A stretch of 64,000 bases of DNA from an uncultured Bacteroidota bacterium. Lineage in GTDB: Bacteria; Bacteroidota; Bacteroidia; AKYH767-A; 2013-40CM-41-45. The stretch spans positions 1-64,000 of the forward strand of contig CALMQM010000007.1 in NCBI GenBank assembly GCA_937871435.1. Reading direction: 5' to 3'. The position numbers were made by a program, and so were the translations under genes. Below the pieces are notes generated by a model, which saw nothing but the letters and a program-made list of their open reading frames with translations, was not told where the DNA came from and ran no database searches. Position 1 is the stretch's first letter, and each line of letters starts with the position of its first letter. Of this stretch, positions 13,521 to 56,300 are shown piece after piece.

Positions 13521-15494
13521 ATGAAAATTGAAATTAAGATTTTATTGGTGACATTGTTTATTTCCAGTCAAGTTGCAGCACAAAATACATGGGTTCAAAA
13601 AGCCGACTATGGAGGGGGTGTTCGAACAGGTTCTGCTGGCTTTTCAATTGGAAGCAAGGGGTATCTTGGTGTAGGGATTGATGATTTTCAATTTTATCAT
13701 CAGGACTTCTGGGAATGGGATCAGAATTTAAATGTCTGGACACAAAAGGCTGATTTCATTGGATTAGGAAGAACATTCGGAGTAGCATTTTCTATTGGAA
13801 ACAAGGGGTATATTGGAATGGGATATACTGCTTTTGGTTGCGGTTGTATGAATGACTTTTATGAGTATGATCCGGCTTTAAATACATGGGTTCAAAAGGC
13901 TGATTTTCCGGGAACGGGCAGGCAAGGTGCTATTGGTTTTTCAATTGGGGCAAAAGGTTATATTGGAATGGGGCGTGAATCAAATACCAATAATTTGATG
14001 AAGGATTTTTATGAATGGGACCAGGCGACTAATATTTGGACTCAAAAAACAGATTTTATCGGAACACCAAGGTTTGGAGCAACTGGTTTTTCGATTGGAA
14101 ATTCAGGGTATGTGGGTTTGGGAAATGATGGAGCTAGCACAACACATCTTACCCAGGATTTTTATAAATGGGATCAGGCTACAGATAGTTGGACTGCAAT
14201 TGCAGATTTCCCAGGTGTGGCACGGTATTATGCAGCCGCATTTGTAATTGGTTCAAGCTCGTATGTTGGGACTGGATTTATTTCAACTCCACCATATCGA
14301 ACTGTTGATCTTTATGAATGGGATTCTCAAAATAATTTATGGTCAGCTCGGGCTGATTTCTTGGGTTTGCCAAGAGGCCAGGCGGTCGGCTTTTCTGTTG
14401 GTAATAGAGGGTATATTGGAACAGGGGATATTAGTGGTACATCTGCAGATTTTTGGGAATATACTCCTCATATTTCCTCAATTAATTGTCAGGGAAGTCA
14501 GATAACAGCGTCCTTGGCAAATGGGCTTGCAGCCTGGTATCCATTTTGTGGAAATGCAAATGATGAGAGTGGGAATGGAAATGATGGAATAGTGCATGGA
14601 GCAAGTCTAACTTCAGATAGATTCGGGAATACAAATAGCGCGTATCAATTTAATGGAGTATCTGACAGTATCATGGTAGCAGATTCTCCTGAATTAAATA
14701 TCAGGACGGGGCAGTCTTTCAGCATCGCATTGTGGCTGAAGCAGGATACGTTGAATAGTGCGAAATACTTTTTTTCAAAGTACAGTGGATCAATGGGGCA
14801 GGTTCCGGCTTATGCTTTTGGGACGCAAGATGTTCCTAACCCTGGAGGCGGCTATGCTTATTTTGAATCTCCAGGTGGTTCAAATGAAACGCGAGGGAGC
14901 AGATTTATCGCAGATGCAAATTGGCATCATTTTGTTTGTGTTTTTAATTCAGGATTGAATATAACCATGTATTTAGATGGTGATACCGATGTGGTGTCAA
15001 GTATATCCTTTTCAGACAGCATTGTAAATGCTTTAGACATTTCTATTGGAACAGGTGGATACCAAACTTCGCAACAGTTCTTTAAGGGGAAGTTGGATGA
15101 TATAGGATTATGGAACCGGGCATTGTCCGGTCAGGAAGTTCAACAGTTATATAATCTCGGTTTATGTTTTCAAACAATCACTGTAACAGACACCCTTATT
15201 ATAAATGCAAACATTACCGGATTCAATCCTGTCACCTATCAAAATTCTATCAAAGTCTATCCGAATCCCTCCAACGATCACATTACAATTGATTGTGGCA
15301 GTAACTACAATACAATGAATGGATATTCTATTCGCTTAGATAATACTCTTGGTCAAACGGTTTATTCAACCTCGTTAAATCAACAAACATATAGTGTGGA
15401 TTTAAACACCTGGACTGGCAATGGAGTTTATCTGATTTACTTGTTGAATGCTCAGGGGATAGTAGTGGATGTAAGGAAAATTGTAATTCAATAA
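13521..15494 (+). CDS. T9SS-secreted kelch-like plus LamG-like protein (657 aa)
   Basis: The ATG at 13521 gives a clean signal peptide ending in VAAQ; an upstream ATG at 13461 would add 20 residues before it and is less likely. Residues 20-320 carry six kelch-like blade repeats of about 50 residues, each with a W-x-x-K/R-x-D-F...G-Y-x-G-x-G pattern, likely a beta-propeller. Residues 335-560 form a LamG/concanavalin-like domain (AAWYPF, GNGNDG, WHHFVCVF). The C-terminal 70 residues are a T9SS sorting domain (YPNPSNDH). A carbohydrate- or matrix-binding surface protein is the best guess. It starts 61 bp after the preceding cargo gene on the same strand. Confidence 0.87.
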   Translation: MKIEIKILLVTLFISSQVAAQNTWVQKADYGGGVRTGSAGFSIGSKGYLGVGIDDFQFYHQDFWEWDQNLNVWTQKADFIGLGRTFGVAFSIGNKGYIGMGYTAFGCGCMNDFYEYDPALNTWVQKADFPGTGRQGAIGFSIGAKGYIGMGRESNTNNLMKDFYEWDQATNIWTQKTDFIGTPRFGATGFSIGNSGYVGLGNDGASTTHLTQDFYKWDQATDSWTAIADFPGVARYYAAAFVIGSSSYVGTGFISTPPYRTVDLYEWDSQNNLWSARADFLGLPRGQAVGFSVGNRGYIGTGDISGTSADFWEYTPHISSINCQGSQITASLANGLAAWYPFCGNANDESGNGNDGIVHGASLTSDRFGNTNSAYQFNGVSDSIMVADSPELNIRTGQSFSIALWLKQDTLNSAKYFFSKYSGSMGQVPAYAFGTQDVPNPGGGYAYFESPGGSNETRGSRFIADANWHHFVCVFNSGLNITMYLDGDTDVVSSISFSDSIVNALDISIGTGGYQTSQQFFKGKLDDIGLWNRALSGQEVQQLYNLGLCFQTITVTDTLIINANITGFNPVTYQNSIKVYPNPSNDHITIDCGSNYNTMNGYSIRLDNTLGQTVYSTSLNQQTYSVDLNTWTGNGVYLIYLLNAQGIVVDVRKIVIQ

Positions 15495-16153
15495 TTCTTG
15501 TAACAAAACAAAGGTTGTCTCAAGATAGGAGAAAGGTTAATGTTAGCCTTTTAGGAGAATTATATTTCCTAAAGTTGATGCCTTGTAATTTTTCAATTCC
15601 ACTCAATCATCGGTGAGTGTATAGGTATTCAATCTATGAATAGCAGATGCAAAGGTTGGGGATTGGGTATGAAATATATATTATTTCATTATTGTAAAAT
15701 AGTTCATTGCAATTCTCTTTTTTCTCACCCCTCTGAATTTTTTTTCTCACCCCTCTAGGTTTTTTTTCTCACCCCTCTAGGTTTTTTATCTCACCCCTCT
15801 GAGTTTTATCTCACCCCTCTGAGTTATTTATCTCACCCCTATGGATTGAGTATTTCTTTTCTAGATGTACAAACTCTACTTTTTATTTAGTTTTTAAATC
15901 AAATTCAAGTATTTTAAAATTTACATAATGAACAATAGATAATTCATGAATTCTAAATTTAATTATTCTGTAATAGATAGAAATTAATGAGTAATTGAAA
16001 ATTTAACTAAGTGTCTAATAAAATACAGCATATATTAGAATTTTATTTATTAAATTAAAACTTGACAATAAATTATTTTACTTCGTTAAACTTATTTAGA
16101 ATTCTTACGAGATCACAATTCTGATCAAACCTTTACAATTAAAAATTATTCTC
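15495..16153. other. Intergenic region containing a 22-bp-period repeat
   Basis: This 659-bp gap has no credible gene. It holds a short hairpin (TTTAGGA at 15550 pairing with TCCTAAA at 15567) after the preceding gene and the CTCACCCCTCT array at 15724-15842. An AT-rich stretch follows, with a TTGACA at about 16062 but no convincing -7 box. Confidence 0.6.
15724..15842 (+). repeat. Six-copy CTCACCCCTCT array with 22-bp period
   Basis: The 11-mer starts at 15724, 15746, 15768, 15790, 15810 and 15832. The last copy differs by one base, and the spacing is 22, 22, 22, 20 and 22 bp. Between copies lie T-rich spacers. The pyrimidine-only, helically phased layout is unlike coding sequence. Confidence 0.85.
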
Positions 16154-19100
16154 ATGAAAACCATCTCAACACGATTCGTATTTTTATTGACGATTTTATT
16201 TTGGGAAATCACTGTTGCGCAGCCAACAGTATATGAATCTAATCCCGAAAGAAGCATGTATGTAAATCAGTTTGTTAAGTTATTGCCAAATGGGGATCTC
16301 TACGAAGATGGTAGTATACTTGGTGTGGATAAAAACAGTGATGGAATATTTGAAAAGGAGGAGGAGTTGTTAAAATATGCAAGCAAAAACCACATTACGC
16401 ATTTAATTTTGTATGATTTACGAAAAGTATTTGGACAAGCGTACCCGCTTGTTTGGAATCAAAATAATTTGAGATTCGAAACCTTAGAGGAGCATTTGTG
16501 CAGATTTATGAAAGATGCACAAACATATTGCATTGTTTCATTTGGAGCGGATGGCGGAAATGGAATACTCAGAAATGCTGCTGAATTCGATGGCGATCCA
16601 TCAACATTTATTCCTACACCACCAATAATTTTACCTCAAACTTTAAGAACTGCTGACAATAGGCTTGCCATTGTTGAAGATTCAACGCTGATTCCAGGCA
16701 GTCATGAATATTTTGAAGCGGAGTTATTGAAGCTATTTTTAAGAATCAGCCAATTTAATAATTCCAATTCTTGTGGAGTTCATTTTAATACACTTGCATA
16801 TGATAATGAGTTCTGGAATTCGCTTCCTAATGGACCTGGGAATGCCTGTGGTATAATACCTTTGAAAGATCCCGCATGCAATCCTTGCTGTGTTTTCTCG
16901 CCTTGTGCGGATGATCCAAATGAGACAACTGACCAGACCGGATGTACTGGTATTGGGTATTTATCCGATAATGCAATTGAATATTATCATCATGTAATCC
17001 CAAATTTGGAGGAATTGAATACTATTCAGAATAGTTCAGCCTTTCCAATTAAAATCGAATTATACCTTGGGACACTCTATGTAGGCGGGATATCGCGAAC
17101 TGAATATTCCTCCGATATTCTTGATTCTTATTTTTATCGCGATTATAGTGATCCATTGATTGATAGAATTCTATTAGTGAATTATATAACAAGCCCGGGT
17201 AATACTAATCAGGGTATGTATGATGTATTTTATAATGATTCATGGAATCAGCCAGTTCCAAATCAACCCGCTGGAGAAAAGGGAGTTCCTCATACAGATA
17301 TTCACCCACTTTTTAGTACTGAATCAATTTTGCATCATGGATATGATGATTACATGGGGCCATATTTAGAGTCGTCTCCAGATCATACAATTTTTACATT
17401 TGAAAAAGGTGTATACGAAGATTGGCGAACACGCATTGCAGGTCCTGCAAATTTTGCTGATTCCAAACAGAATAATATTCAACCAGGCGGTTTCTCGTAT
17501 TATACTTCAAATATGATGGTGCCTTTTTACGACAACCCTCCTTTATTTTATTCAACTGATTTTCCTGCTTGTGGGATTACAGGTAGTTATATTGTTGATT
17601 GGTCTTCTTTTGTGTATCTGGGTCCAATGGAGAAAGGCATTAAGTATACATTTAAAATTTTCAATGGAACTAGTGTTGTTTATAATGTGACCGGGATATC
17701 ATCTGATTACTCTGTATTTACTTCTGGGTATTTCTCTAATATTGATTTTCAAAATCCTTTAACTTTTACTCCATGTACATTAAACGTTGGGCAATATGTT
17801 GCAAAGCTGGAATTAGATTATGAGTTTCCATTAGGCTGTCATTATGAATATAGTTGTCCTTTAGATGTGGTAAATGTTCCTACAATTGGAGCTCTTTCCA
17901 ATGAATCGCCACTCGAATTTTGCGAAGGAGAGTATGTTTGGTTGCAAGCTATAGGCGGTTCTGGAACGAATTATAGTTGGGAATTTTCAATTGACAATAT
18001 TAATTTTGGAGAATTGCACCCGCAAGTTACATCACGACTTTTAAAAGCTGAAATGGATGGCTACTACCGCTGTCACATTTCAAATTCTAGTTGTGTAAGT
18101 GATGGGTATAGTGATACAATTCATATTACTGTGAATCCAAATCCTCCGATTCAAATAGTTTCGGATTGCGTGACAAATGGTGGAGTTCAGCAAGTTCATT
18201 TATCTTTAACAACTCCTGGTGTATCATCCCAAGCCAACGGAAATATGGTTTATCATTGGTCAACTGGTGAAACTACACCTGATATCACTGTTGATTATGG
18301 AGTTGGAACAATTTATGTTTATGTTTATAATATAAACAGTTCTGGCTGCCAGCAGTATGGAAAAATTATTATTCCCGGTGCATTTGATCCGGATCACTAT
18401 TTTCATTTTACAGTATTATCAACATTAAATTTGCAAAGTGATAATAATCCATGTACCGAAGACAAAATGATTACTGTGCAGTTATGGGAACATAAGTTGG
18501 ATGATCAAGGTATTGTAATAGACGCACCGGTATCAGGACAAGTAGCATATTTATGGTCTGACGGTACTTTTGGAAATTCGCTTTCATATCCATATATGGG
18601 TTCAACTTATACCTTATCTGCCACAAATGGACTTACAACCCAGTGTTATAATCCACCGTATTCTTATACAGCTCCATCGGTTAATCCATTAAGTGTGACC
18701 AGCACTGTAACAAATGTAAATTGTTCGAATTCAAATTCAGGGAGCATAACTTTAATTCCATCCGGATCTGGCAATTATCAATTTATCTGGCCTCAAGGAA
18801 TTTCTAACTCTCAAATAAGTACCGTGAATGGTCAATCTACAGCGTCTGGTTTGTTGCCAGGTCAGTATCCTGTTATGGTTTATGATTTGGGATCTGGCAC
18901 TGCATGCGGAGGATCGTATTCAAATACAATCACTATTTCCGCACCTTCTAATTCTTTGCAATTAACCAATTTTGTTACCAATGACCCAACAGGTAATTGT
19001 CAAAGTAGTTCCAATGGATCAATAACGGTGAATACATCAGGTGGCACATCACCTTTGTCATATTCATGGTCCAATACACTAACAACTCAAACAATTTCTA

Positions 19101-39007: not shown

Positions 39008-39089
39008 ATAACTGAGTTGTAATTATTGATAAAACGATTTTGCTGACCGGTTTTGCGTTTTAAAATATTTGTAATTTACCGGCAAATTG

Positions 39090-41063
39090 ATGGAGTGTAT
39101 GAAACAGTTCGTCTGTTTTTTGATCGTTTTTACTTTGTTTTTCGCAGGAGAAATTCAAGCGAAAGAAACCATCATTGACAGCCTTCAAAAAGTGTTGGCT
39201 TTATCACAAGAAGATACTTCCAAAGTCAATACACTTATTCAGCTGAGCATGGAGATCCGTACAGAAAAGCCGGAAGAAGCTGTTCGCTACGGAAAAGCGG
39301 CTGTAGAACTGGCCCGGAAGTTGAATTACAACAAAGGACTTGCGAACGCTTATAAATGGACAGGGGTCGGTTACTTCATTCAGGCGTCTTACCTGGAGGC
39401 AATTCCTTATTATGAGCAGGCATTGCAGATGTATGATTCCATCGGCGATAAAAAGGGAAAGGCGAGTATTCTCGGGAATATCGGAAATATCTGGTACAAT
39501 CAGGGTGTTCAGGAAAAGGCGATTGATTATTATTTACGCACCTTAAAAGTGGCAGAAGAGATCAATGATTCTGCACGTGTGATCACAATGCTTGTGAATA
39601 TCGGGGCTGTTTATACAGATAAGAAATCTACATATGACAAAGCTCTGGAATATCTTCACAGAGCTTACCCTTTGAGTCTGGCTTTGCAGAGTGATTTAAA
39701 GTACGATTTGATCGGCACTACAGCTGTGAACATTGGGGAGATATTCTACAAGAAATATGAAATTGAAAAGAACGAGAGCGTACGGAAGCAAGATCTTGAT
39801 TCAGCCTTGTACTATTTTGAAAAATCTCTCGAGCCTTACAAAGGCACTGAAAATTTGCCGTATGCACTTAATTATATAGGTCGGGTTTATCTTGCTAAAG
39901 GAGATTTTGCAAAAGCAGTTTACTATCAGCAGGAAGCATTCAACAAATCAAAAGAACTTGGTGCCCGCAACGACATGATGATTTCTTTGTTGCGGCTCGC
40001 ACAGACTTATTTTGAAAAAAAGGATATACAGCAAGCTCTTGCATCATTCAAGGAAGCTGAAAAAATTGCCAAGGAGACTGAAGCTACAAAGGAGCAAAAA
40101 GAGATCTACGAAGGGATCTCTGCAGTTTATGCGGAATTGTCGGACTATAAAAATGCTTACAAATATCAGAGCATGCTTATCAGGATAAAGGATTTGCTGT
40201 ATGATATTGATTCCGATAAAAAACTTGGAACACTTCAATTCAGTTATGATCTGGAAAAGAAAGAATCAAAAATTAAACTTCTTACAAAAGACCAGGAATT
40301 AAAGGAACAGGAAATTAACCGCCAGAAAATCGTTCGGAATAGTTTCATGGGAGGTTTCGCGATTGTGTTGTTATTTGCAGGTGTGTTTTTCGCGCAGCGT
40401 AACCGGATATCAAAGGAGAAAAAGAGAAGTGATGAATTGCTTCTGAACATTTTACCAGAGGAAACTGCTGAAGAGTTGAAATCAACCGGCACCGCGAAAG
40501 CGAAAAGCTTCGATTCGGTGAGTGTGTTGTTTACAGATTTTAAAAATTTCACACAGGCGTCGGAGCTGCTTAGTCCGGAAGATCTGGTCGCGGAAATTAA
40601 TTATTGTTACAGTGAATTTGATAAGATCATCACCAAACATGGGATTGAAAAGATTAAAACGATTGGGGATGCGTATATGTGCGCCGGTGGCTTACCTGTT
40701 GCAAATACGACACATCCATTCGATCTTGTGAAAGCTGGGTTGGAAATGGTTGCATTCATTGAAAAAAATAAACAGGCCCGGATTGCAAACAATCAGCCAT
40801 ATTTTGAATTACGCTGCGGAGTCCACACCGGACCTGTTGTTGCGGGTATTGTCGGGATTAAGAAATTCGCCTATGATATTTGGGGTGATACAGTAAATAC
40901 AGCTTCCCGCATGGAATCTTCCGGTGAAATCGGGAAGGTGAATATTAGCGGGACTACTTACGAAATTATTAAAGAAAAATTTCATTGCGAATACAGAGGT
41001 AAAGTGAAAGCAAAAAACAAAGGTGAAATAGACATGTATTTTGTTCAATCTGAAATTTCCTGA
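39090..41063 (+). CDS. TPR-containing class III adenylate cyclase (657 aa)
   Basis: A signal peptide at about residues 5-25 (if started at the ATG at 39090; a second ATG is at 39099) is followed by TPR-type helical repeats (about 45-400) and a transmembrane segment near 410-435 (GGFAIVLLFAGVFFA). The C-terminal class III cyclase domain has metal-binding aspartates D483 (FTDF) and D527 (TIGDAY), and purine-selecting residues K523 and D596 (YDIWGDTVN), which favour ATP over GTP. The topology puts TPRs in the periplasm and the catalytic domain in the cytoplasm, suggesting a sensor that makes cAMP in response to an external protein. No partner is nearby. Confidence 0.88.
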   Translation: MECMKQFVCFLIVFTLFFAGEIQAKETIIDSLQKVLALSQEDTSKVNTLIQLSMEIRTEKPEEAVRYGKAAVELARKLNYNKGLANAYKWTGVGYFIQASYLEAIPYYEQALQMYDSIGDKKGKASILGNIGNIWYNQGVQEKAIDYYLRTLKVAEEINDSARVITMLVNIGAVYTDKKSTYDKALEYLHRAYPLSLALQSDLKYDLIGTTAVNIGEIFYKKYEIEKNESVRKQDLDSALYYFEKSLEPYKGTENLPYALNYIGRVYLAKGDFAKAVYYQQEAFNKSKELGARNDMMISLLRLAQTYFEKKDIQQALASFKEAEKIAKETEATKEQKEIYEGISAVYAELSDYKNAYKYQSMLIRIKDLLYDIDSDKKLGTLQFSYDLEKKESKIKLLTKDQELKEQEINRQKIVRNSFMGGFAIVLLFAGVFFAQRNRISKEKKRSDELLLNILPEETAEELKSTGTAKAKSFDSVSVLFTDFKNFTQASELLSPEDLVAEINYCYSEFDKIITKHGIEKIKTIGDAYMCAGGLPVANTTHPFDLVKAGLEMVAFIEKNKQARIANNQPYFELRCGVHTGPVVAGIVGIKKFAYDIWGDTVNTASRMESSGEIGKVNISGTTYEIIKEKFHCEYRGKVKAKNKGEIDMYFVQSEIS

Positions 41064-41193
41064 GGCAGCTTTGATATTGCTACTTCATAAATGAAAATTA
41101 TTTGTCTGCGATTTTAATGTGTTTTTCTGTTATGAATGGAATTTGGAAGGAAATGATAATCTTGTATTTTGGGCGACACAAAATTTAGAATGC

Positions 41194-41937
41194 ATGTATC
41201 ACAAGCATAAAATAGTTGTCGTTTTGCCTGCCTACAATGCTGAACGTACACTGGAACAAACATACCGGGAAATACCGCGGGATATTGTTGATGATGTGAT
41301 TCTGGTTGATGATTATTCGAGTGACCATACCGCGGAGTTAGCGCAGCGTCTTGGAGTAGCTCATGTTATCCGGCACGATAAGAATAAAGGATACGGCGGG
41401 AATCAGAAATCCTGCTACAATGCAGCGTTGAAATTACATGCTGATATTGTGATCATGTTGCATCCGGATTATCAGTATACACCTAAACTTATCACTGCCA
41501 TGGCGTCTGTGATTGCGGATGGTGTTTATCCGGTAGTGATCGGATCCAGAATTTTAGGTGGAGGCGCGCTTCGGGGAGGGATGCCTCTTTACAAGTACTA
41601 TTCAAACCGCCTGCTTACTTTATTTCAGAATTTTTTAATGGGCCAGAAGCTGAGTGAATATCATACCGGTTTCAGGGCTTACCACAGTCGGGTGTTGAAA
41701 GCGATAGATTACAATGGGAACAGTGATGATTTTATTTTTGATAATGAAGTGATCGCTCAGATTTTTCATCATCGTTTTGAGATCGCTGAAATCACTTGCC
41801 CTACCAAATATTTCAAAGAGGCTTCCAGTATTAATTTTCGAAGAAGCGTAAAGTACGGATTGGGTGTTATGATGGTGTCTGTAAAATATTTTTTACACCA
41901 CAAGGGGATAATGAAGTGGGGTAGGTTGAAGAAGTAA
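41194..41937 (+). CDS. Family 2 glycosyltransferase
   Basis: A 247-aa protein when started at the ATG at 41194, which directly precedes the typical GT-A beginning (KIVVVLPAYNAERTL). A GTG further upstream would add 25 residues without homology appeal. It has the nucleotide-binding VDDYSSD motif, a KGYGGNQ segment, HPDYQY in place of the usual DADxQ, and an acceptor-side GFRAY. It resembles dolichol-phosphate-mannose-synthase-like enzymes that transfer sugar to a lipid carrier or glycan. There is no C-terminal membrane pair. No other glycan genes are close, so the substrate cannot be guessed. Confidence 0.85.
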   Translation: MYHKHKIVVVLPAYNAERTLEQTYREIPRDIVDDVILVDDYSSDHTAELAQRLGVAHVIRHDKNKGYGGNQKSCYNAALKLHADIVIMLHPDYQYTPKLITAMASVIADGVYPVVIGSRILGGGALRGGMPLYKYYSNRLLTLFQNFLMGQKLSEYHTGFRAYHSRVLKAIDYNGNSDDFIFDNEVIAQIFHHRFEIAEITCPTKYFKEASSINFRRSVKYGLGVMMVSVKYFLHHKGIMKWGRLKK

Positions 41938-42266
41938 TTTTTTTAAGTACCCGAAAAAGGGAACAATGTTTCCTGAATTTTTATTGACATAACAAGTGTA
42001 TTCAATCTCACTTCTTCGTTTCCTTTTCCTGATAGCTATACTGATATTATTTTTTACGAAATCAAGTAAAGTGGTTTTTAACTGTTATGTAAATTCGGCT
42101 TTTGCCGGAAAGCGAAGGGGGGACAGCAATATTTTGTATTCAGAAATTGACTGTAAGTTCATAAGTTTATTTGCTTTTCAGAGGTAAAATGACTATACTT
42201 GTATTGAGAATTTGTCGTGTTTTTTAAATCTTCTGCTGAACCATTCATTCATTAAAACAAAACGTC
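41938..42266. other. Intergenic region upstream of the GG-leader peptide
   Basis: A 329-bp gap with the promoter at 42170-42201. A GTG-started 63-codon frame at 41996-42187 encodes a hydrophobic N-terminus but overlaps the promoter and is not credible as a gene. Confidence 0.5.
42170..42201 (+). promoter_or_regulatory. Promoter of the GG-leader peptide gene
   Basis: TTTG (42170-42173), 20 bp, then TATACTTG (42194-42201) fits the Bacteroidota TTTG/N19-21/TAnnTTTG pattern with one mismatch in the -7 box. The implied leader is about 60 nt. Confidence 0.5.
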
Positions 42267-42410
42267 ATGAAAAATTCCGCATCAAACAAAAAAGCTGTAG
42301 CGAAAAAAGCTATTGAGAAAATTGACAAAGCTGATTTGAAAAAAATCAAAGGCGGTCAGACTCCAACTCACAGAGTCAACTATGCAAAAGGAAAAGGCGC
42401 AATTGCTTAG
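42267..42410 (+). CDS. Double-glycine leader peptide, putative bacteriocin/RiPP-like precursor (47 aa)
   Basis: A 47-aa, lysine-rich peptide (12 Lys, no Cys) with an N-terminal leader ending in LKKIKGG (residues 24-30), the recognition site of C39 peptidases: hydrophobic L24 and I27 sit at the usual -7 and -4 positions before the cut. Cleavage after G30 would release a basic 17-residue product starting QTPTHRVN and ending GAIA. The PCAT exporter and HlyD adaptor downstream are the expected partners. It could be a bacteriocin, a signalling peptide, or another exported small peptide. No modifying enzyme is adjacent, and the lack of Cys argues against lanthionine or disulfide forms. It was found by reading the gap upstream of the exporter. 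Confidence 0.75.
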   Translation: MKNSASNKKAVAKKAIEKIDKADLKKIKGGQTPTHRVNYAKGKGAIA

Positions 42411-42435
42411 TTGATTTTTTTATTCTTTTTCTACT

Positions 42436-42479
42436 GAAACATTGAATTTCGGATGTTTCATTCTGAAAGTTCCGAAATT
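42436..42479 (+). promoter_or_regulatory. Two mutually exclusive hairpins downstream of the precursor gene
   Basis: GAAACAT (42436-42442) pairs with ATGTTTC (42453-42459). AATTTCGGA (42445-42453) pairs with TCCGAAATT (42471-42479). The arms overlap, so only one can form. No T-tract follows the second; a T-run precedes the first. Confidence 0.35.
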
Positions 42480-42819
42480 ATGTGTTGAAGGATTTCTTGC
42501 TTATATCTCGGACAACCGTTCGATGTAAGCTATGGATGTTTTATGCTCATTTTAGAGTTTGATTTACCTATTGGGTATGTTGGTGACTCTTGTGTCTCAC
42601 TAAGCAGGCCATGATGTGTTTTTTTTTGTTTTCATCAATCATTTTTTGGAAATCGCTTGATCCTTATCTGGCTTTCATCTTCTAAAGCTTTTGTAAAGCC
42701 TTGAGTCCAACGGTGGTAAAGCGTTCTTTCGACATAATTTGTATGGGAGGATAATCAGATTTTGTATTTTCCCGTGAAATTCTTATGCTTGTTTCATATT
42801 TGGTTTCCTGCTTTCAACT

Positions 42820-42848
42820 TTTGTGTCGCAGGGAATTAGTTATATTTG
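42820..42848 (+). promoter_or_regulatory. Promoter of the C39 ABC exporter gene
   Basis: TTTG (42820-42823), 17 bp, then TATATTTG (42841-42848), a full match to the -7 consensus with slightly short spacing. It lies 40 bp before the GTG start. Confidence 0.5.
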
Positions 42849-42888
42849 GCATTAGCAGAATTGCTTTTGAGCAAAAATTAGCCTATTT

Positions 42889-45078
42889 GTGAAACTAAAT
42901 AAATCTTTTCCTTTCATACAGCAGTCAGGGATGATGGAATGCGGGACAACCTGCCTCGCCATGATCTTTAAGTACTACGGATATTACAATATCCAGACTT
43001 TGTTGACCAAGCTGGGTGAGGTGACTACCGAAGGGACAAGTTTGTATAACATGGCTCAACTCGCTGAGCAGTTTGGTTTCAAGGCTGACGGATATGAGCT
43101 TCACGCCTATGAACACCTTGCCGAAGTTCAGCTTCCATGTATCGCCCACTACAATGGAGTTCATTTTATTATTGTCTATAAGTTTTCTAAAACACATGTC
43201 TGGATTGCTGATCCGGCCTATGGGAAAGATAAACTGACGAAGAAGGAATTTCTGAATCGCTGGAACGGGATTATTCTCGTGGTTGAACCGACTCCGGAGA
43301 TTTTCAAGAATAAAGATTTGACGGAATCTGTAGAAGAATTTATGAAGGAGAAAAAATCTCTCTGGAAGAAATTCTATGCACCGGTAATTACTTCGATGAA
43401 AAAAGTAATCTTCGAAGTGCTGCTTGCTACATTTTTCCTGCAATTCCTTGGGCTTGCAATCCCGTTCTTTACCCAGTTGATTGTGGACGATGTGTTGGTG
43501 AATCAAAACAAGCAATTGTTGGTCGCGATTCTGGTTGGAATGGCCGGAATTTTCTTTACCCAGATTCTATTAATTTATGTCAGAAATGTCTTGCTGATAC
43601 AGCTTCAGATAAATTTCGAGCTCGATTTCTTCAGCAGGTTCTTCCGGCATTTTATTTCTCTCCGTCAAAAATATTATGACAACAATAAACGGGAAGATTT
43701 TATGGCCCGTTTTCAGGAGAATATTACCATCCGTCAGCTTGTAAATCCGACAGTAGTAGAGAGTATTGTAGACATCCTGTTCATTCTCTTTTACCTTCCT
43801 GTTTTATTGATATATAACCTCAAGCTTGGTCTCCTGGCCCTTGGTTTTGTAATCATCTTTTTCATTTTCACAATTTACTATGCGCCGGTTATGCGCCTGC
43901 TGGTGTACAAAGTTTTTTACAAAAATCTTGAAACATTAGGTGAATTTTTGGATTCCCTTCTTGGTATCAAGACAGTGAAATTACTTTCGCTGGAGAATTT
44001 TAAATTCTGGCAGTGGAAAAATAAATACAAGAAAACACTGAATGTGGTAATGGCTTCCGAGATGAAAAATGCCATGCTTCATTCACTTCAGAGAAGTTTA
44101 TTCTTTCTCAGTCAGATTTCCATCTTCTGGCTGGGAGCATACATGACTTTCAACAATGAAATCACGATCGGACAATACCTCGCATTTACAGCCATCTTTG
44201 TTGTGATCATGAATTCATTGAACAGTCTCGGTATGATCTGGTATAACATTACTGAGTTATGGGTGAGCCTTGGTCGATTGAATGAAGTGCTCATGCAGGA
44301 AACCGAGAATACCAACATGCTTGAACTGGTAAATAATTTTACGACCGATAAGATAGTATTGAAAGATGTTTGCTTCAAATACAACAGCTCCGAGGATGAT
44401 TACATCATTAAAAATGTGAATGTAGAAGTCAACAAAGGAGAGATGATCGGGATCGTGGGAAGAAATGGTTCAGGAAAAACAACTCTTGTGAAATTGTTGC
44501 TGAATTTGTACCCTGAATATGAAGGTGAGATTACTGTTGATCAACATGAATTAAGAAGAATTAATCCGAATGCACTTCGGTCGAAAGTTTTTCTGTTTCC
44601 TCAGGACATTTACATTTTCTCCGGAACAATCAAGGAGAATATTCAGTTTGGAAATCTGGATGCGGATCTGGAAAGTATTGTGAAGGCGGCCAAGCTTGCG
44701 CATCTTCATGATTATGTGAAGGGTCTCTATCTTGGCTACAACCATAAAGTTGGAGATACGGGAGGAAATTTATCGGGCGGACAAAAATTGAAAATTGGTT
44801 TCGCGAGATTGTTCTTGTCAAATCCTGATGTGATTATTCTGGATGAGGCCAGCAGTATGCTTGATATAGAATCCGAGACTGTAATCATGAACAACATCCG
44901 GACACATTTCAAAGGAAAAACGATCATTTCTATTGCGCACCGATTGAATACATTGAAAAATGCTGACCGTGTGTGGGTTTTGGAGAAGGGAGAAATTATT
45001 GAAGATGGTCATCATAATGAATTGATAAAGAATCAGGGCTTGTATTACAAGTTCATGAAAACATATGTCGATTACTAA
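42889..45078 (+). CDS. C39-peptidase ABC exporter (PCAT)
   Basis: A 729-aa peptidase-containing ABC transporter with a GTG start. The N-terminal C39 domain (about 1-135) has the oxyanion-hole Q12, catalytic C18 (MECGTTC), H92 (NGVHF) and D108 (IADPA), so the peptidase should be active. Membrane helices occupy about 170-440. The ATPase domain has Walker A GRNGSGKTT, the LSGGQ signature, Walker B VIILDEAS and the switch-region AHR. The enzyme cuts double-glycine leaders at the cytoplasmic face and exports the product. The GG-leader peptide lies upstream and an HlyD adaptor 46 bp downstream. Confidence 0.93.
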   Translation: MKLNKSFPFIQQSGMMECGTTCLAMIFKYYGYYNIQTLLTKLGEVTTEGTSLYNMAQLAEQFGFKADGYELHAYEHLAEVQLPCIAHYNGVHFIIVYKFSKTHVWIADPAYGKDKLTKKEFLNRWNGIILVVEPTPEIFKNKDLTESVEEFMKEKKSLWKKFYAPVITSMKKVIFEVLLATFFLQFLGLAIPFFTQLIVDDVLVNQNKQLLVAILVGMAGIFFTQILLIYVRNVLLIQLQINFELDFFSRFFRHFISLRQKYYDNNKREDFMARFQENITIRQLVNPTVVESIVDILFILFYLPVLLIYNLKLGLLALGFVIIFFIFTIYYAPVMRLLVYKVFYKNLETLGEFLDSLLGIKTVKLLSLENFKFWQWKNKYKKTLNVVMASEMKNAMLHSLQRSLFFLSQISIFWLGAYMTFNNEITIGQYLAFTAIFVVIMNSLNSLGMIWYNITELWVSLGRLNEVLMQETENTNMLELVNNFTTDKIVLKDVCFKYNSSEDDYIIKNVNVEVNKGEMIGIVGRNGSGKTTLVKLLLNLYPEYEGEITVDQHELRRINPNALRSKVFLFPQDIYIFSGTIKENIQFGNLDADLESIVKAAKLAHLHDYVKGLYLGYNHKVGDTGGNLSGGQKLKIGFARLFLSNPDVIILDEASSMLDIESETVIMNNIRTHFKGKTIISIAHRLNTLKNADRVWVLEKGEIIEDGHHNELIKNQGLYYKFMKTYVDY

Positions 45079-45124
45079 GCTAACTAACTTCATTGCCTGA
45101 TCGGCTTGATGAGAATTGTATACA

Positions 45125-46393
45125 ATGAGTGAACTTGACGAATTAGACCCGCAACAGTACGAACGAATTTATTGGGATGAAGATGTTCCGGTAAAGGATG
45201 TCCGCAAGAGTGCATTGAGGAAACTCGTGTACATTGGAGGAGGTTTGTGCCTGTTGTTTGCTATACTCGCCATTTTCATCAAGTTTCCTGATCAGGTGGA
45301 GTTGCCATTTGTTTTGAAGAGCGATCAATCAGAAGAGATCTATCGATTTTCATATCCTGTTTATATTCTTGAAGATTACCAGAAACAAGGTTCAAAAGTG
45401 AGTAAGGGCCAGAAGCTGATGCGAATCACTTCCCCGGAAATTGTAGCCTTGGTGAATGGTTATATTGAAGCAGAAAAGAATCTGCAGATTTTTACAAACC
45501 AGAAATTACTTTCAGTTCAGAAACAAAAAGAAATGATCGCGACCCGCATCAGGAAAAATGATTCCCGGATAGCGGAAACAGAACATGAACTGAGTGTGCT
45601 CGACAGTACATGGAAAAGCAATCTGGCTCGGTTACAATACGAGAGTGATGATGCTGCGCAAAAGTATGACCTGAATAAAAAACTTTTTGATGAGGGCCAT
45701 ATTTCCAGGTTTGATCTGATCGAATCCGAAACAAAAAAACTGAAAGCTTTCGATGCGCTGACAAGTGCCAGGCAGGAATATCAAAAAGCAAAATTCAGTC
45801 TCACTTCAATGAATGAACAGTCGTTTCTTGATAACAATTCATTTAGTGATGAAATGAGCAAATTAGCCATTGATACAAAATACGATTCCATATCTCTCGT
45901 AAATCAGTTTGATCTGGCAAAAAATAAAATCAGGAACACATTTGGAGATTTTACTCTTTCGGAAAATGATCTGATTCTAATAGCAAGAGGTGATGGAATA
46001 GTATCCTATGCTTTTGACGGTGACAAGCAGGTAAAAGAAGGCGCGATTTTGTTAAAGGTGATGTACAATAGTTCCGCTTTGTATGCGACAGTGAAAAGTC
46101 CGCCTTCGCTTATTGGCAGAGTGAAACAAAAGAATAAAGCTGTCCTGAAAATTTCATCATTCCCTTTCTACGAATGGGGAACTATGCAGGGACATGTTGA
46201 CAACCTCAGTCTTACACCAGATGAAAACGGTGCCTTTTCAATCAATATTGCCGTGGATGATTTTGGCAATCTGAAAAATCTTGTTCAGATCGGAATGAAT
46301 GGAAGTCTTACAATCATTCTGGAAGAGAAAACCTTTTATCAATACATTTTCAATGACATGAAAAAGGTTTATTACGAAGCTACTGCTCAATAA
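45125..46393 (+). CDS. HlyD-family periplasmic adaptor of the peptide exporter
   Basis: A 422-aa protein starting at the ATG at 45125 (an upstream TTG at 45116 adds three residues). A short acidic cytoplasmic tail is followed by one transmembrane helix (about 33-55), a beta/lipoyl-like segment, a long coiled-coil hairpin (about 95-235), and a C-terminal beta-barrel half (SPPSLIGRVKQKNKAVLKI). This is the layout of membrane-fusion proteins that link an inner-membrane ABC exporter to a TolC-type outer-membrane channel. It follows the PCAT by 46 bp, so they are surely co-transcribed. No TolC gene is in the window. Confidence 0.88.
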   Translation: MSELDELDPQQYERIYWDEDVPVKDVRKSALRKLVYIGGGLCLLFAILAIFIKFPDQVELPFVLKSDQSEEIYRFSYPVYILEDYQKQGSKVSKGQKLMRITSPEIVALVNGYIEAEKNLQIFTNQKLLSVQKQKEMIATRIRKNDSRIAETEHELSVLDSTWKSNLARLQYESDDAAQKYDLNKKLFDEGHISRFDLIESETKKLKAFDALTSARQEYQKAKFSLTSMNEQSFLDNNSFSDEMSKLAIDTKYDSISLVNQFDLAKNKIRNTFGDFTLSENDLILIARGDGIVSYAFDGDKQVKEGAILLKVMYNSSALYATVKSPPSLIGRVKQKNKAVLKISSFPFYEWGTMQGHVDNLSLTPDENGAFSINIAVDDFGNLKNLVQIGMNGSLTIILEEKTFYQYIFNDMKKVYYEATAQ

Positions 46394-46407: not shown

Positions 46408-48012
46408 TTATACTTCTGTTTTGTGCAGATGTTCAAATTCCGAAGTAGTGTGAAAATGGACTCCAACCGCACTTTGTTTGATTAGTTTCATCATCCATTC
46501 GTTTTCTGAAAAATATACGGGACGATTTTCTTTGTCGTAGGCAATCGCAATGGATCGATGACTGATGAATTGATCGAGTTGTGCCGGAGTATCTGCAGTA
46601 ATCCAGAAAGCTTTACTGAAATTGAGTGTGCGGAATTCGCATCTGGCTCCATACTCATGTTCCAGCCGGAATTTGATCACATCAAATTGCAGTTCACCAA
46701 CAGTACCGATAATTTTTCGGTTTCCCGGTTGCTGGGTAAACAACTGAGCAACTCCTTCTTCTGTGAGTTGTTGTATTCCTTTTTCGAGTTGTTTTGTTTT
46801 AAAGGGGTCACGATTTTCCACTTCTTTGAATATCTCAGGAGAAAAGCTGGGAATACCCGTATAATGGAGCATTTCACCTTCACTCAGCGTATCACCGATC
46901 TTGAAAATTCCGTTGTCATACAATCCCACCACATCACCCGGATAAGCCTCTTCAATCAAACTTTTTTCATTCGCCATAAAACTCGTGGGGTTGTTGAAGC
47001 GAATTTTCTTTTCTGATCGGGTATGGAAATAAAATTTGTTTCGTTCAAATTTTCCGGAGCAAATTCTCAGAAAGGCGATTCTGTCGCGGTGATTGGGATC
47101 GAGGTTCGCGTGAATTTTGAAAACGAAACCGGAGAATTTGGGCTCAACCGCCTTGACTTCTCGCTCTAATGCTTCCCGTGATGATGGAGGAGGAGCAATC
47201 TCCAGAAATGTCTCAAGCATTTCACGTACACCGAAATTGTTGATCGCGCTACCGAAGAAAACAGGAGCAAGTAATCCGTCGCTGTATAATTCCTTGTTGA
47301 AGGGTTCAAATACACCTTCGATCAGATGGACATCTTCACGTAACTTTTCTGTGTATCGGTCGCCAATTAATTTGGAAATATTCTCATCATTCAGGTTATT
47401 AATCTTTGCGATGTTCTCGGAGATTCTGGTTTTGCTTGGCTCAAAGAGGTTCATTTGTTTGTTATACAAACTATAAACTCCCTTGAAGGATTCACCCTGT
47501 CCGACAGGCCATGTTAAAGGTCGCACGTGAATTTGTAATTTCTCCTGCAGTTCGTCCAGCAGATCAAATGGGTCTTTCCCTTCCCGATCCATTTTGTTTA
47601 TGAAGATGATCACCGGTGTATTGCGCATACGGCAAACTGCCATCAGTTTTTCAGTTTGTTCCTCTACACCTTTAATGCAATCCACCACAAGAATAACTGA
47701 GTCAACAGCAGTAAGTGTCCGGTAGGTATCTTCGGCGAAATCTTTGTGACCAGGTGTGTCAAGGATATTTACTCTGTGTCCCTGGTAATCAAAACCCATG
47801 ACTGAAGTCGCAACCGAGATCCCTCTTTGCTTTTCGATTTCCATGAAGTCGGAAGTAGCGGTCTTTCTGATTTTATTGCTCTTAACAGCGCCGGCAGTGA
47901 CGATGGCTCCTCCAAAGAGAAGGAATTTCTCTGTCAAAGTGGTTTTCCCGGCATCCGGGTGACTGATAATGGCAAATGTTCTGCGTTTTGAAATCTCTTT
48001 TTCCAGCTCCAT
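46408..48012 (-). CDS. prfC: Peptide chain release factor 3
   Basis: A 534-aa translational GTPase. G1 SHPDAGKTT (18-25 region), the RGISVATSV switch, DTPGHKDF (G3) and NKMDREG (G4) are present. The C-terminus has the RF3-type GVAQLF...[14 protein letters not shown] region that separates RF3 from EF-G. It recycles RF1 and RF2 from the ribosome after peptide release. It converges on the HlyD gene with only 14 bp between stops and is probably unrelated to the exporter. Confidence 0.95.
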
Positions 48013-53300: not shown

Positions 53301-56300
53301 TGGTAATGGAAGATTCAGTGAAATTCAGAACGCAGTTTCCAACAGTCACAAATGCCATTGGAGTATTAGGATTTAATTACAGCAATGGGGGAGACCAGGT
53401 TCGCTTGTTTGATTATACAGGAAATCTTTATTTATCCTTTTACTATTCTGATCTCGCACCTTGGCCAACTACTCCTGATGGCGGAGGCTACACTTGCGAA
53501 TTATTGAATGTAAATGGTGATCTGAGTGACGGGAACAACTGGTTTGCAGGTTGTATCGGTGGTTCGCCCGGACGAGCATACAGTTCTCTGCTTTCCGTTC
53601 CTGTTACAGTGTCGGGGAATACGACCTTTTGTAATGGCGGCAATGTATTGCTAAGCGCGACCAACGATCCAAATTATACATATCAGTGGAAACGAAATAA
53701 TACTTCCATTGTAGGAGCTACATCTGCAAATTATACAGCCATTCAAGGAGGAACATATACTGTGGTCGTTAGTTCCCTCGGTTGCTCTGTAGTTTCCGAT
53801 CCGACGATAGTTAACGTAGTATCACAAAGTCCGGATCCGGTAACTGCTGCCAATTGGCGATGTGGTGCCGGTACATTGCAACTCACCGGAACGTCGACGG
53901 ATACCATTTTCTGGTATGATGCACCAAACGGAAACCTTGTAGGTTTCGGAGATACATTAAATACGCCTGCTCTTTCATCTACTACCACGTATTATGCGAA
54001 AACAAGCAGGACTTGTCCTTCGAATCCTGTTGCGACAGTAGCGCAAATTCTTGCCCAGACGGCCGCTCCTGTTACAAGCGATGTAACACGATGTGGTCCC
54101 GGCATTGCCACACTCACTGCCAGTGATACTGCTACCATGCATTGGTACAATGCTCCGATTGGCGGCGGTTTGTTAGAAACCGGCAGTACTTTTGTGACTA
54201 ACTATATTTCAAGTGATACTGTTTTTTACGTAGAAGCAGGAAGTGTGTGTCCAAGTCCACGTATCGAAGCACATGTAATCATCAATTCCACTCCCGATCC
54301 TCAGGTTTCTGATAATTCACGTTGTGGAGCCGGAACAGTTGTACTTACGGCTGTTTCTTCAGCACCTGTATCCTGGTTTAATACCATTTCAGGTGGTTCT
54401 TCATTGGGAACCGGATTGAATTTTACTACGCCTTCCCTTGCTGCTACAGATACATTTTACGCTGAAGCCAATTCGGGTTGCCCAAGTGCCCGTATTCGTG
54501 CAATTGCAATCATCAATACTGTAGTTTCCGCTCCAACCGCCAGCAATGGGTATACTTGCGGACCAGGTGTTGTTACCCTTACAGCAACATCAACAGAGCA
54601 GGTTTATTGGTATGATGCTCCTTCCGGTGGAAACTTGTTGTATACCGGTTCTATTTTCGATACTCCTATGCTCACGGTGAATACAAATTATTATGCGGAA
54701 GCAGGGTATAATTGTCGGAGTGCAAGAACAACCGTATTGGCAAGCGTCAATTCGATTCCTTCAGCACCTACCGCTTCGAATGTTTCACGCTGTGGTACCG
54801 GTAGCGTTACATTGTCAGCTGTTTCTCCTGAATTAGTTACCTGGTATGATGCACCTACTGCAGGTAATTTGCTATTCACAGGTGATCAGTTCGTCACTCC
54901 TTCCTTAAGTAGTACTACAACTTACTATGCTGAAGCGGGAACCACTTGTCTGAGTCCGACAAGAACTGCGGTACAGGCTGTCATCAATTCAATTCCGGCG
55001 GCACCATCTGCATCCAATGTTTCAAGATGCGGAACCGGAACAGTTACACTCACAGCCACATCACCAGAAACTATATACTGGTACAGTGCAGCATCCGGAG
55101 GAACTTTGCTTGCAACAGCTTCGAGTTTCACAACTCCTTCGATCAGTAGTACAACAACTTATTATGTAGAAACGGGAAATACATGCAGAAGTAACCGGAT
55201 CGCTGTGCAGGCTATTATTTCAGGCGCTCCTGCAGCACCTACGGCTTCTGATGTTTCAAGATGTGGAAGTGGAACTGTAACGTTGACCGCGACTTCTTCT
55301 TCTGCAATTTCATGGTACTCTGCCGCGACCGGTGGAACTTTATTGGCAAATGGAAGCAGTTATACCACTCCTTCCATCAGTTCCACAACAACTTATTATG
55401 CAGAAGCGAACAATGGTTGTCCAAGTGCTACACGTACCGCGGTGCAAGCGATAATTAGCCCACTTCCTGCAGCTCCTTCTGCATCGAACAATTCACGCTG
55501 TGGAACAGGTACTGTAACTCTCACGGCCAGCTCTCCTGAGCAGGTGTATTGGTACAGTGCATCCAGCGGAGGTACATTGCTTGCTACAAATTCATCGTAT
55601 ACCACTCCGTCTATCAGTGTGACGACTACTTATTATGCAGAAGCAGGAAATACCTGCCGTAGCGCGACAAGAACAGCAGTTCAGGCGATCATCAATACCA
55701 TTCCAAATCCGCCGTCTGCTTCGGATGTTTCAAGATGTGGTTCCGGCACCGTGACATTAACTGCTACATCAAATGAAACAATTTACTGGTATTCTGCGGC
55801 AAGTGGAGGTACTTTGCTTGCGACATCTCCCTCTTATACAACACCGTCTCTGTCAGTATCTACAACTTATTATGTGGAAACCGGTAACACCTGTAGGAGT
55901 AACAGAATAGCAGTCAATGCAAATATTACAAGTCCTCCTGCAGCACCTACCGCTTCGAATGTTTCGAGATGTGGTCCAGGAACAGTCACACTTACCGCAG
56001 CGTCACCGGAACAAATAACCTGGTTTGCGGTTGCAAGCGGAGGAAGTGCATTGTTTACGGGTAGTAGTTATACAACACCTTCAATCAGTTCTACTACTAC
56101 ATATTATGCTGAAGCCGGAAGTGGTTGTCAGAGCCTCACACGAACTGCTGTTCAGGCAATCATTTCTCCTTTACCTTCTGCACCAACTGCATCCGATGTT
56201 TCCAGATGCGGTCCGGGAACTGTGACACTTACGGCAAGTTCACCTGAACAAGTGTACTGGTATAGTGCGGCTTCAGGAGGTACATTGTTAGCAACTGCAT

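Follow-up and report, generated by a model that had tools for sequence, protein, structure and literature searches.

In the streptococcal pheromones of the ComC/CSP kind, a small linear cationic peptide stands behind a double-glycine (GG) leader and is cut by a C39 ATP-binding cassette (ABC) transporter. To our knowledge, few secreted peptides of Bacteroidota are known outside the gut Bacteroidales. The bacteroidetocins of this phylum have leaders of 15-16 amino acids, mature peptides of about 42 amino acids with Cys, and accompanying genes for a five-transmembrane protein and a thiol oxidoreductase (PMC6671954). Here we examine a locus with a GG-leader peptide gene, a peptidase-containing ABC transporter (PCAT) and an HlyD adaptor in a stretch of 64,000 nucleotides, called the window below (contig CALMQM010000007.1, positions 1 to 64,000). 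It belongs to an uncultured Bacteroidota bacterium whose genome amounts to 4.36 Mb in 128 contigs; proteins sorted by the type IX secretion system likewise point to this phylum. The three genes are:

42267-42410, plus strand: precursor peptide gene, 47 amino acids, ATG start (MKNSASNKKAVAKKAIEKIDKADLKKIKGG/QTPTHRVNYAKGKGAIA)
42889-45078, plus strand: PCAT, 729 amino acids, GTG start, with C39 peptidase, ABC transmembrane domain and nucleotide-binding domain
45125-46393, plus strand: HlyD-type periplasmic adaptor, 422 amino acids, ATG start

A reading of the sequence alone had proposed at this place a GG-leader precursor, a complete PCAT and an HlyD protein. All three genes are indeed found on the plus strand where it had put them, and both the domains and the catalytic residues bear the proposal out. 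We consider it likely that this is a self-contained export locus that releases a linear peptide of 17 residues, a signal or a narrow-range antagonist. The precursor would be made from its own promoter, apart from the exporter; its amphipathic leader of 30 residues would dock in the C39 domain via I27, L24 and I19, and C18 would cut behind G30. The ABC domains would then drive the 17-residue core out by way of the HlyD adaptor and of an outer-membrane channel whose gene lies elsewhere, and the product QTPTHRVNYAKGKGAIA, which is probably linear and unmodified, would act outside the cell.

The exporter is the firmest part of this scheme. Its single chain matches Pfam above cut-off in all three domains (Peptidase_C39 PF03412, 115 bits; ABC_membrane PF00664, 94; ABC_tran PF00005, 103) and aligns end to end with PCAT1 (PDB 4ry2) at 368 bits. 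The triad C18, H92 and D108, described as intact in the sequence-only reading, is invariant among eight aligned PCATs, and so is Q12. It is well supported, judging by these residues and domains, that the protein is a PCAT predicted to cleave and export a GG-leader substrate, and a family search of this genome found no other C39 domain. With transporters of the PCAT1/ComA type (PDB 4ry2, 8hf4) the locus shares the order of peptidase, transmembrane and nucleotide-binding domains, the catalytic residues and the adjoining GG-leader substrate. It differs from them by the addition of an HlyD adaptor for a two-membrane cell and by an unrelated cargo. The natural start of the adaptor is the ATG at 45125, 45116 being merely a mechanical TTG start. 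The adaptor matches Pfam HlyD_3 barely over the cut-off, and, compared along almost its whole length, it is 24-25% identical to the HlyD proteins encoded beside the two nearest PCATs. It also matches phrog_4949 (E 2e-17), therefore phage-borne adaptors of such a type may exist.

In the precursor, the leader comprises residues 1-30 and ends in LKKIKGG, and the core comprises residues 31-47. G29 and G30 occupy positions -2 and -1, and I27, L24 and I19 occupy -4, -7 and -12, the positions whose residues lie in a hydrophobic groove in the LahT150 cocrystal (PMC6363468). The inferred cleavage site follows G30, whose codon ends at 42356. The leader is amphipathic, with a hydrophobic moment of 0.72 as against only 0.25 for the core, which is hydrophilic and cationic (GRAVY -0.79, charge about +2.8 to +3), has a mass of about 1.81 kDa (about 1812 Da) and lacks Cys. 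Thus the frame and the Cys-free core of 17 residues read as had been described from the letters alone. No curated GG-leader profile reaches its cut-off on this peptide (the best, NF047798, gives 14.7 bits against 23.5), nor does the ComC profile PF03047 on the leader (11.7 against 20.4, E 0.24). Short leaders often fall under profile cut-offs, and the GG-leader peptides of the relatives do so likewise. Residues 5-37 align with positions 5-37 of phrog_7260, a family of unassigned function, in a weak match (E 0.044). We dropped NF047798, ComC and phrog_7260 as identities for the peptide, since all are below cut-off or weak.

Is such a small frame a gene at all? Among 198 ATG frames of 35-130 amino acids in the window only one carries a strict double-Gly leader, and it is this one. 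Its codon composition scores +14.1 bits as coding against a first-order intergenic background and +32.5 bits against a simpler one, while three neighbouring intergenic frames score -7 to -9 bits with the same first-order background; the bulk of the score stems from amino-acid composition. The frames at 41996, 42590 and 42785, considered as candidates for immunity genes or a second peptide, were rejected for their negative coding scores. The surroundings of the peptide gene hold further elements:

42170-42201, plus strand: promoter of the Bacteroidota type for the peptide gene, TTTG-N20-TATACTTG, tested against shuffles
42438-42486, plus strand: stem-loop 3' of the peptide gene, with arms of 23 nt that are 78% complementary and a loop of 3 nt
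42761-42791, plus strand: weaker promoter-like site of the Bacteroidota type before the transporter gene, TTTG-N19-TATGCTTG

The promoter consensus of the phylum is given as TTTG/TANNTTTG, also written TTTG/TAnnTTTG (PMC6847099), and we scanned with TTTG-N19/20-TAnnnTTG. The site before the peptide gene is one mismatch away from the consensus, and its end lies some 65 nt upstream of the ATG; the site before the PCAT gene contains a G that is disfavoured in the refined consensus (PMC6847099). Loose matches in the window number four, overall no excess over expectation, and two of these four are the sites before the peptide and PCAT genes. When this stretch was shuffled 3000 times, two sites occurred together in 9 cases. 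A sigma-70 scan of the plus strand returned no site before either gene. The suggestion that each transcription unit has a promoter-like site of its own is therefore sustained by matches to the Bacteroidota consensus. The hairpin at 42438-42486 folds better than 200 of 200 shuffles (z -4.51). Because no U-run follows it, we call it a possible attenuator or mRNA 3'-end structure rather than a proven terminator. A search of 41900-43000 against Rfam gave no match. The window contains a piece of 13 nt from this hairpin, TTCGGATGTTTCA, a second time at 55720.

Taken as independent lines, leader motif, coding composition, promoter and hairpin agree that the frame of 47 amino acids is very probably a gene. 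That it is a chance open frame would explain why the peptide has no homologue in any collection searched, and when the intergenic stretch is shuffled with its dinucleotides preserved, a strict GG-leader frame does arise on the plus strand in 15 of 3000 trials (about 0.5%). However, such a frame would have to coincide with coding bias, a well-spaced promoter and a hairpin, beside the only C39 transporter found, and we give this explanation little credence.

The peptide itself is an orphan. No homologue was found in its own genome, in 42 genomes of the order, in 395 genomes of the class Bacteroidia, in 72,556 plasmids or in PDB, and Pfam and NCBIfam gave nothing above cut-off, PHROGs only a weak match. 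Three weak matches in the class genomes were set aside as chance, lying inside unrelated longer proteins (named from their sequences, the tail of an S2-like ribosomal protein, a pirin-like protein and an ABC ATPase). The statement that the product resembles no recognised class thus holds against all these collections. In our opinion, the architecture is ordinary and the exporter of a well-known kind, while the peptide is a real orphan.

The PCAT is sporadic in its distribution. No close copy occurs in the other genomes of its family; the 395 class genomes hold one at 54% identity and one at 33%, and a scan of GTDB contigs adds one at 53% from a metagenome-assembled genome of Chitinophagales. 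The families of the two hosts of the nearest PCATs held no further close copy, and viral contigs held distant PCATs only. In the two nearest relatives, designated L032 and L045 (53-54% identity), a GG-leader gene immediately precedes that of the PCAT, save for one short intervening frame in L045:

L032:991-1533: GG-leader Hint gene, upstream of the PCAT
L045:6868-7440: GG-leader Hint gene, upstream of the PCAT
L045:7485-7607: GG-leader frame of 40 amino acids between the Hint gene and the PCAT (MKTPKNGIQDATPKGKKSLNPDSMRTVKGG/GPIITEDIVF)

In both Hint proteins the GG leader is followed by 10-11 residues ending in IDG and then by a Cys that opens an intein-like domain. TIGR01445 matches the L032 protein above cut-off from residue 26, which is this Cys, and the L045 protein slightly under cut-off from residue 34. 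Pfam Intein_splicing (below cut-off) and PDB 2lwy, a bacterial intein-like domain (E 0.005), agree with this reading. The domains lack a terminal HN. A single-sequence AlphaFold model of the L032 protein (pLDDT 33) was set aside. Such a layout suggests, as far as the sequences go, that the C39 peptidase removes the leader and that a small peptide is then released in a hedgehog-like manner, possibly via a thioester. If true, an intein-like domain would be an unusual way to finish a small peptide, and a literature term search for Hint, double-glycine and ABC transporter returned no matching paper. The relatives' Hint-fused GG substrates, rather than the window itself, are the most interesting lead of this work. 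Hint proteins of this sort are rare, a full match occurring once in the 395 class genomes.

The check that had been proposed for the small frame was its conservation next to PCAT genes of relatives. At the level of sequence the outcome is negative, since different substrates are encoded upstream of the nearest PCATs, but at the level of architecture it is positive, as a GG-leader gene occupies the same slot beside both. With a GG-leader gene upstream in all three known members of the PCAT clade, position supports the frame as cargo. As read from these three loci, gene slot and exporter are conserved in the clade and cargo sequence is not: the clade swaps its cargo yet keeps the slot. The window peptide shares with the Hint substrates of L032 and L045 the clade, the slot and the GG leader, and differs from them in having no intein-like domain, which in those substrates comes after a segment of about 10 residues. 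In the short L045 peptide the GG is at residues 29-30, so that its leader of 30 residues equals that of the window peptide, and its core GPIITEDIVF is similar to what follows the GG of the Hint protein (VIIIQDIVIDGCF), as though the Hint substrate had been copied in shortened form. One may go further and imagine a rare Bacteroidota PCAT clade that secretes peptides of about 10-17 residues, either directly after the GG cut, as in the window, or after a fused hedgehog/intein-like domain has freed their C-terminal end, as in the relatives, the window peptide being a free-standing version of the Hint-processed class. We regard this idea as rather doubtful. More distant PCATs (28-33%) adjoin other GG-leader peptides (L049, L046, L047 and L050). 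The gene layout suggests that those of L049 and L046 are Cys-containing peptides with large neighbours resembling lanthionine synthetases. L049, whose genome is of the same family, has at 15207-16520 an array of four or more similar GG-leader peptides rich in Cys (type MKKQIKKL...GG...CPGHNTCYTC), near a PCAT and large genes; read from the genes alone, the layout is lanthipeptide-like.

Several points weigh against a self-contained locus with the 17-mer as its product. Within the locus we found no gene for an outer-membrane channel of the TolC type (the rest of the genome was not searched for one), and none of the flanking genes could be recognised as coding for a receptor, a response regulator or an immunity protein. 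The signal from synonymous codons alone is weak (+1.2 bits, a value also met in segments of genes), and the absent homologues leave the coding status of the frame without comparative support. Further, the different cargo of the nearest PCATs means that an unlinked cargo gene elsewhere is possible. The main cargo would then be another GG-leader protein and the 47-residue peptide a secondary or decaying substrate, as might fit both the Hint-fused proteins that the nearest PCATs appear to export and the short L045 peptide with its likeness to a shortened Hint substrate. On the contrary, no Hint-type cargo was found in this genome (other GG-leader genes were not scanned for genome-wide), the window core is unlike the N-terminal segment of the Hint proteins, and the peptide gene shows coding bias and lies behind an intact promoter of its own. 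We find an unlinked main cargo unlikely, though worth bearing in mind, and keep to the 17-mer as the exported product.

What this product does outside the cell is less clear. It had been proposed as either a new bacteriocin or a signal peptide; the first gained no specific support, and the second is equally unproven. A small unmodified class II-like bacteriocin, exported by the same mechanism and killing close relatives, is a possibility that we hold only tentatively. GG leader, PCAT and cationic core are the usual set-up of a bacteriocin, and producers of bacteroidetocins in Bacteroidota can be without immunity proteins (PMC6671954). However, the core is not only hydrophilic and Cys-free but also just 17 amino acids long and weakly amphipathic, with no likeness to bacteroidetocins or to bacteriocin profiles above cut-off. 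Bacteroidetocins have in common with the locus the phylum, the GG leader, the PCAT and the lack of an obvious immunity gene; they differ from it in the peptide (here a leader of 30 and a core of 17 amino acids, without Cys) and in the neighbours, as no five-transmembrane protein or thiol oxidoreductase is among the flanking genes. ComC/CSP is likened to the window peptide by a small linear cationic product after a GG leader, the leader match being very weak (PF03047, E 0.24). The phylum is different, the cores are not similar, and no pair of histidine kinase and response regulator is among the flanking genes identified (unlinked receptors were not searched for). We lean slightly towards an extracellular signal over a bacteriocin of narrow range: class II bacteriocins that act on membranes are typically longer and less hydrophilic than this core, and no gene for immunity could be recognised. 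The peptide is short and chemically simple to synthesise and has a complete processing exporter, hence both its secretion and its activity lend themselves to direct tests.

Profile searches identified in the flanks a glycosyltransferase of family 2 (GT2), a TPR-cyclase, prfC and a protein sorted by the type IX secretion system:

39087-41063: TPR-guanylate/adenylate cyclase gene, upstream flank
41146-41937, plus strand: GT2 glycosyltransferase gene, upstream neighbour of the peptide gene
41958-41974: terminator-like hairpin between the GT2 gene and the peptide gene
46408-48012, minus strand: prfC (peptide chain release factor 3), downstream flank

A synteny search for an empty site found prfC in four members of the family, in none of them with the other flanking genes beside it, so that no insertion boundary can be drawn.

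The GT2 gene bears on the statement that no modifying enzyme is nearby. This needs qualifying, since the gene adjoins the peptide gene upstream; the protein resembles dolichol- and undecaprenyl-phosphate sugar transferases. Glycocin loci pair a GG precursor, a PCAT and a glycosyltransferase, and here the GT2 gene is on the same strand, 330 bp upstream of the peptide gene; the product might then be a glycocin-like RiPP (ribosomally synthesised and post-translationally modified peptide), O-glycosylated for example on Thr2 or Thr4. Against this, the best solved relatives of the GT2 are dolichol-phosphate mannose synthase and undecaprenyl-phosphate sugar transferases, with no glycocin transferase or dedicated peptide glycosyltransferase among its matches. 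Moreover, neither L032 nor L045 has a recognisable glycosyltransferase gene next to its PCAT, the hairpin at 41958-41974 and the promoter separate the GT2 gene from the peptide gene, and the core has no Cys. Given that its relatives are polyprenyl-phosphate transferases and that the near-relative PCATs have no such neighbour, glycosylation of the peptide by the GT2 seems unlikely, and we consider a glycocin-like product highly improbable. Among plasmid proteins the GT2 is matched best by one of Novosphingobium, with 60% identity, which is surprisingly high for a different phylum.

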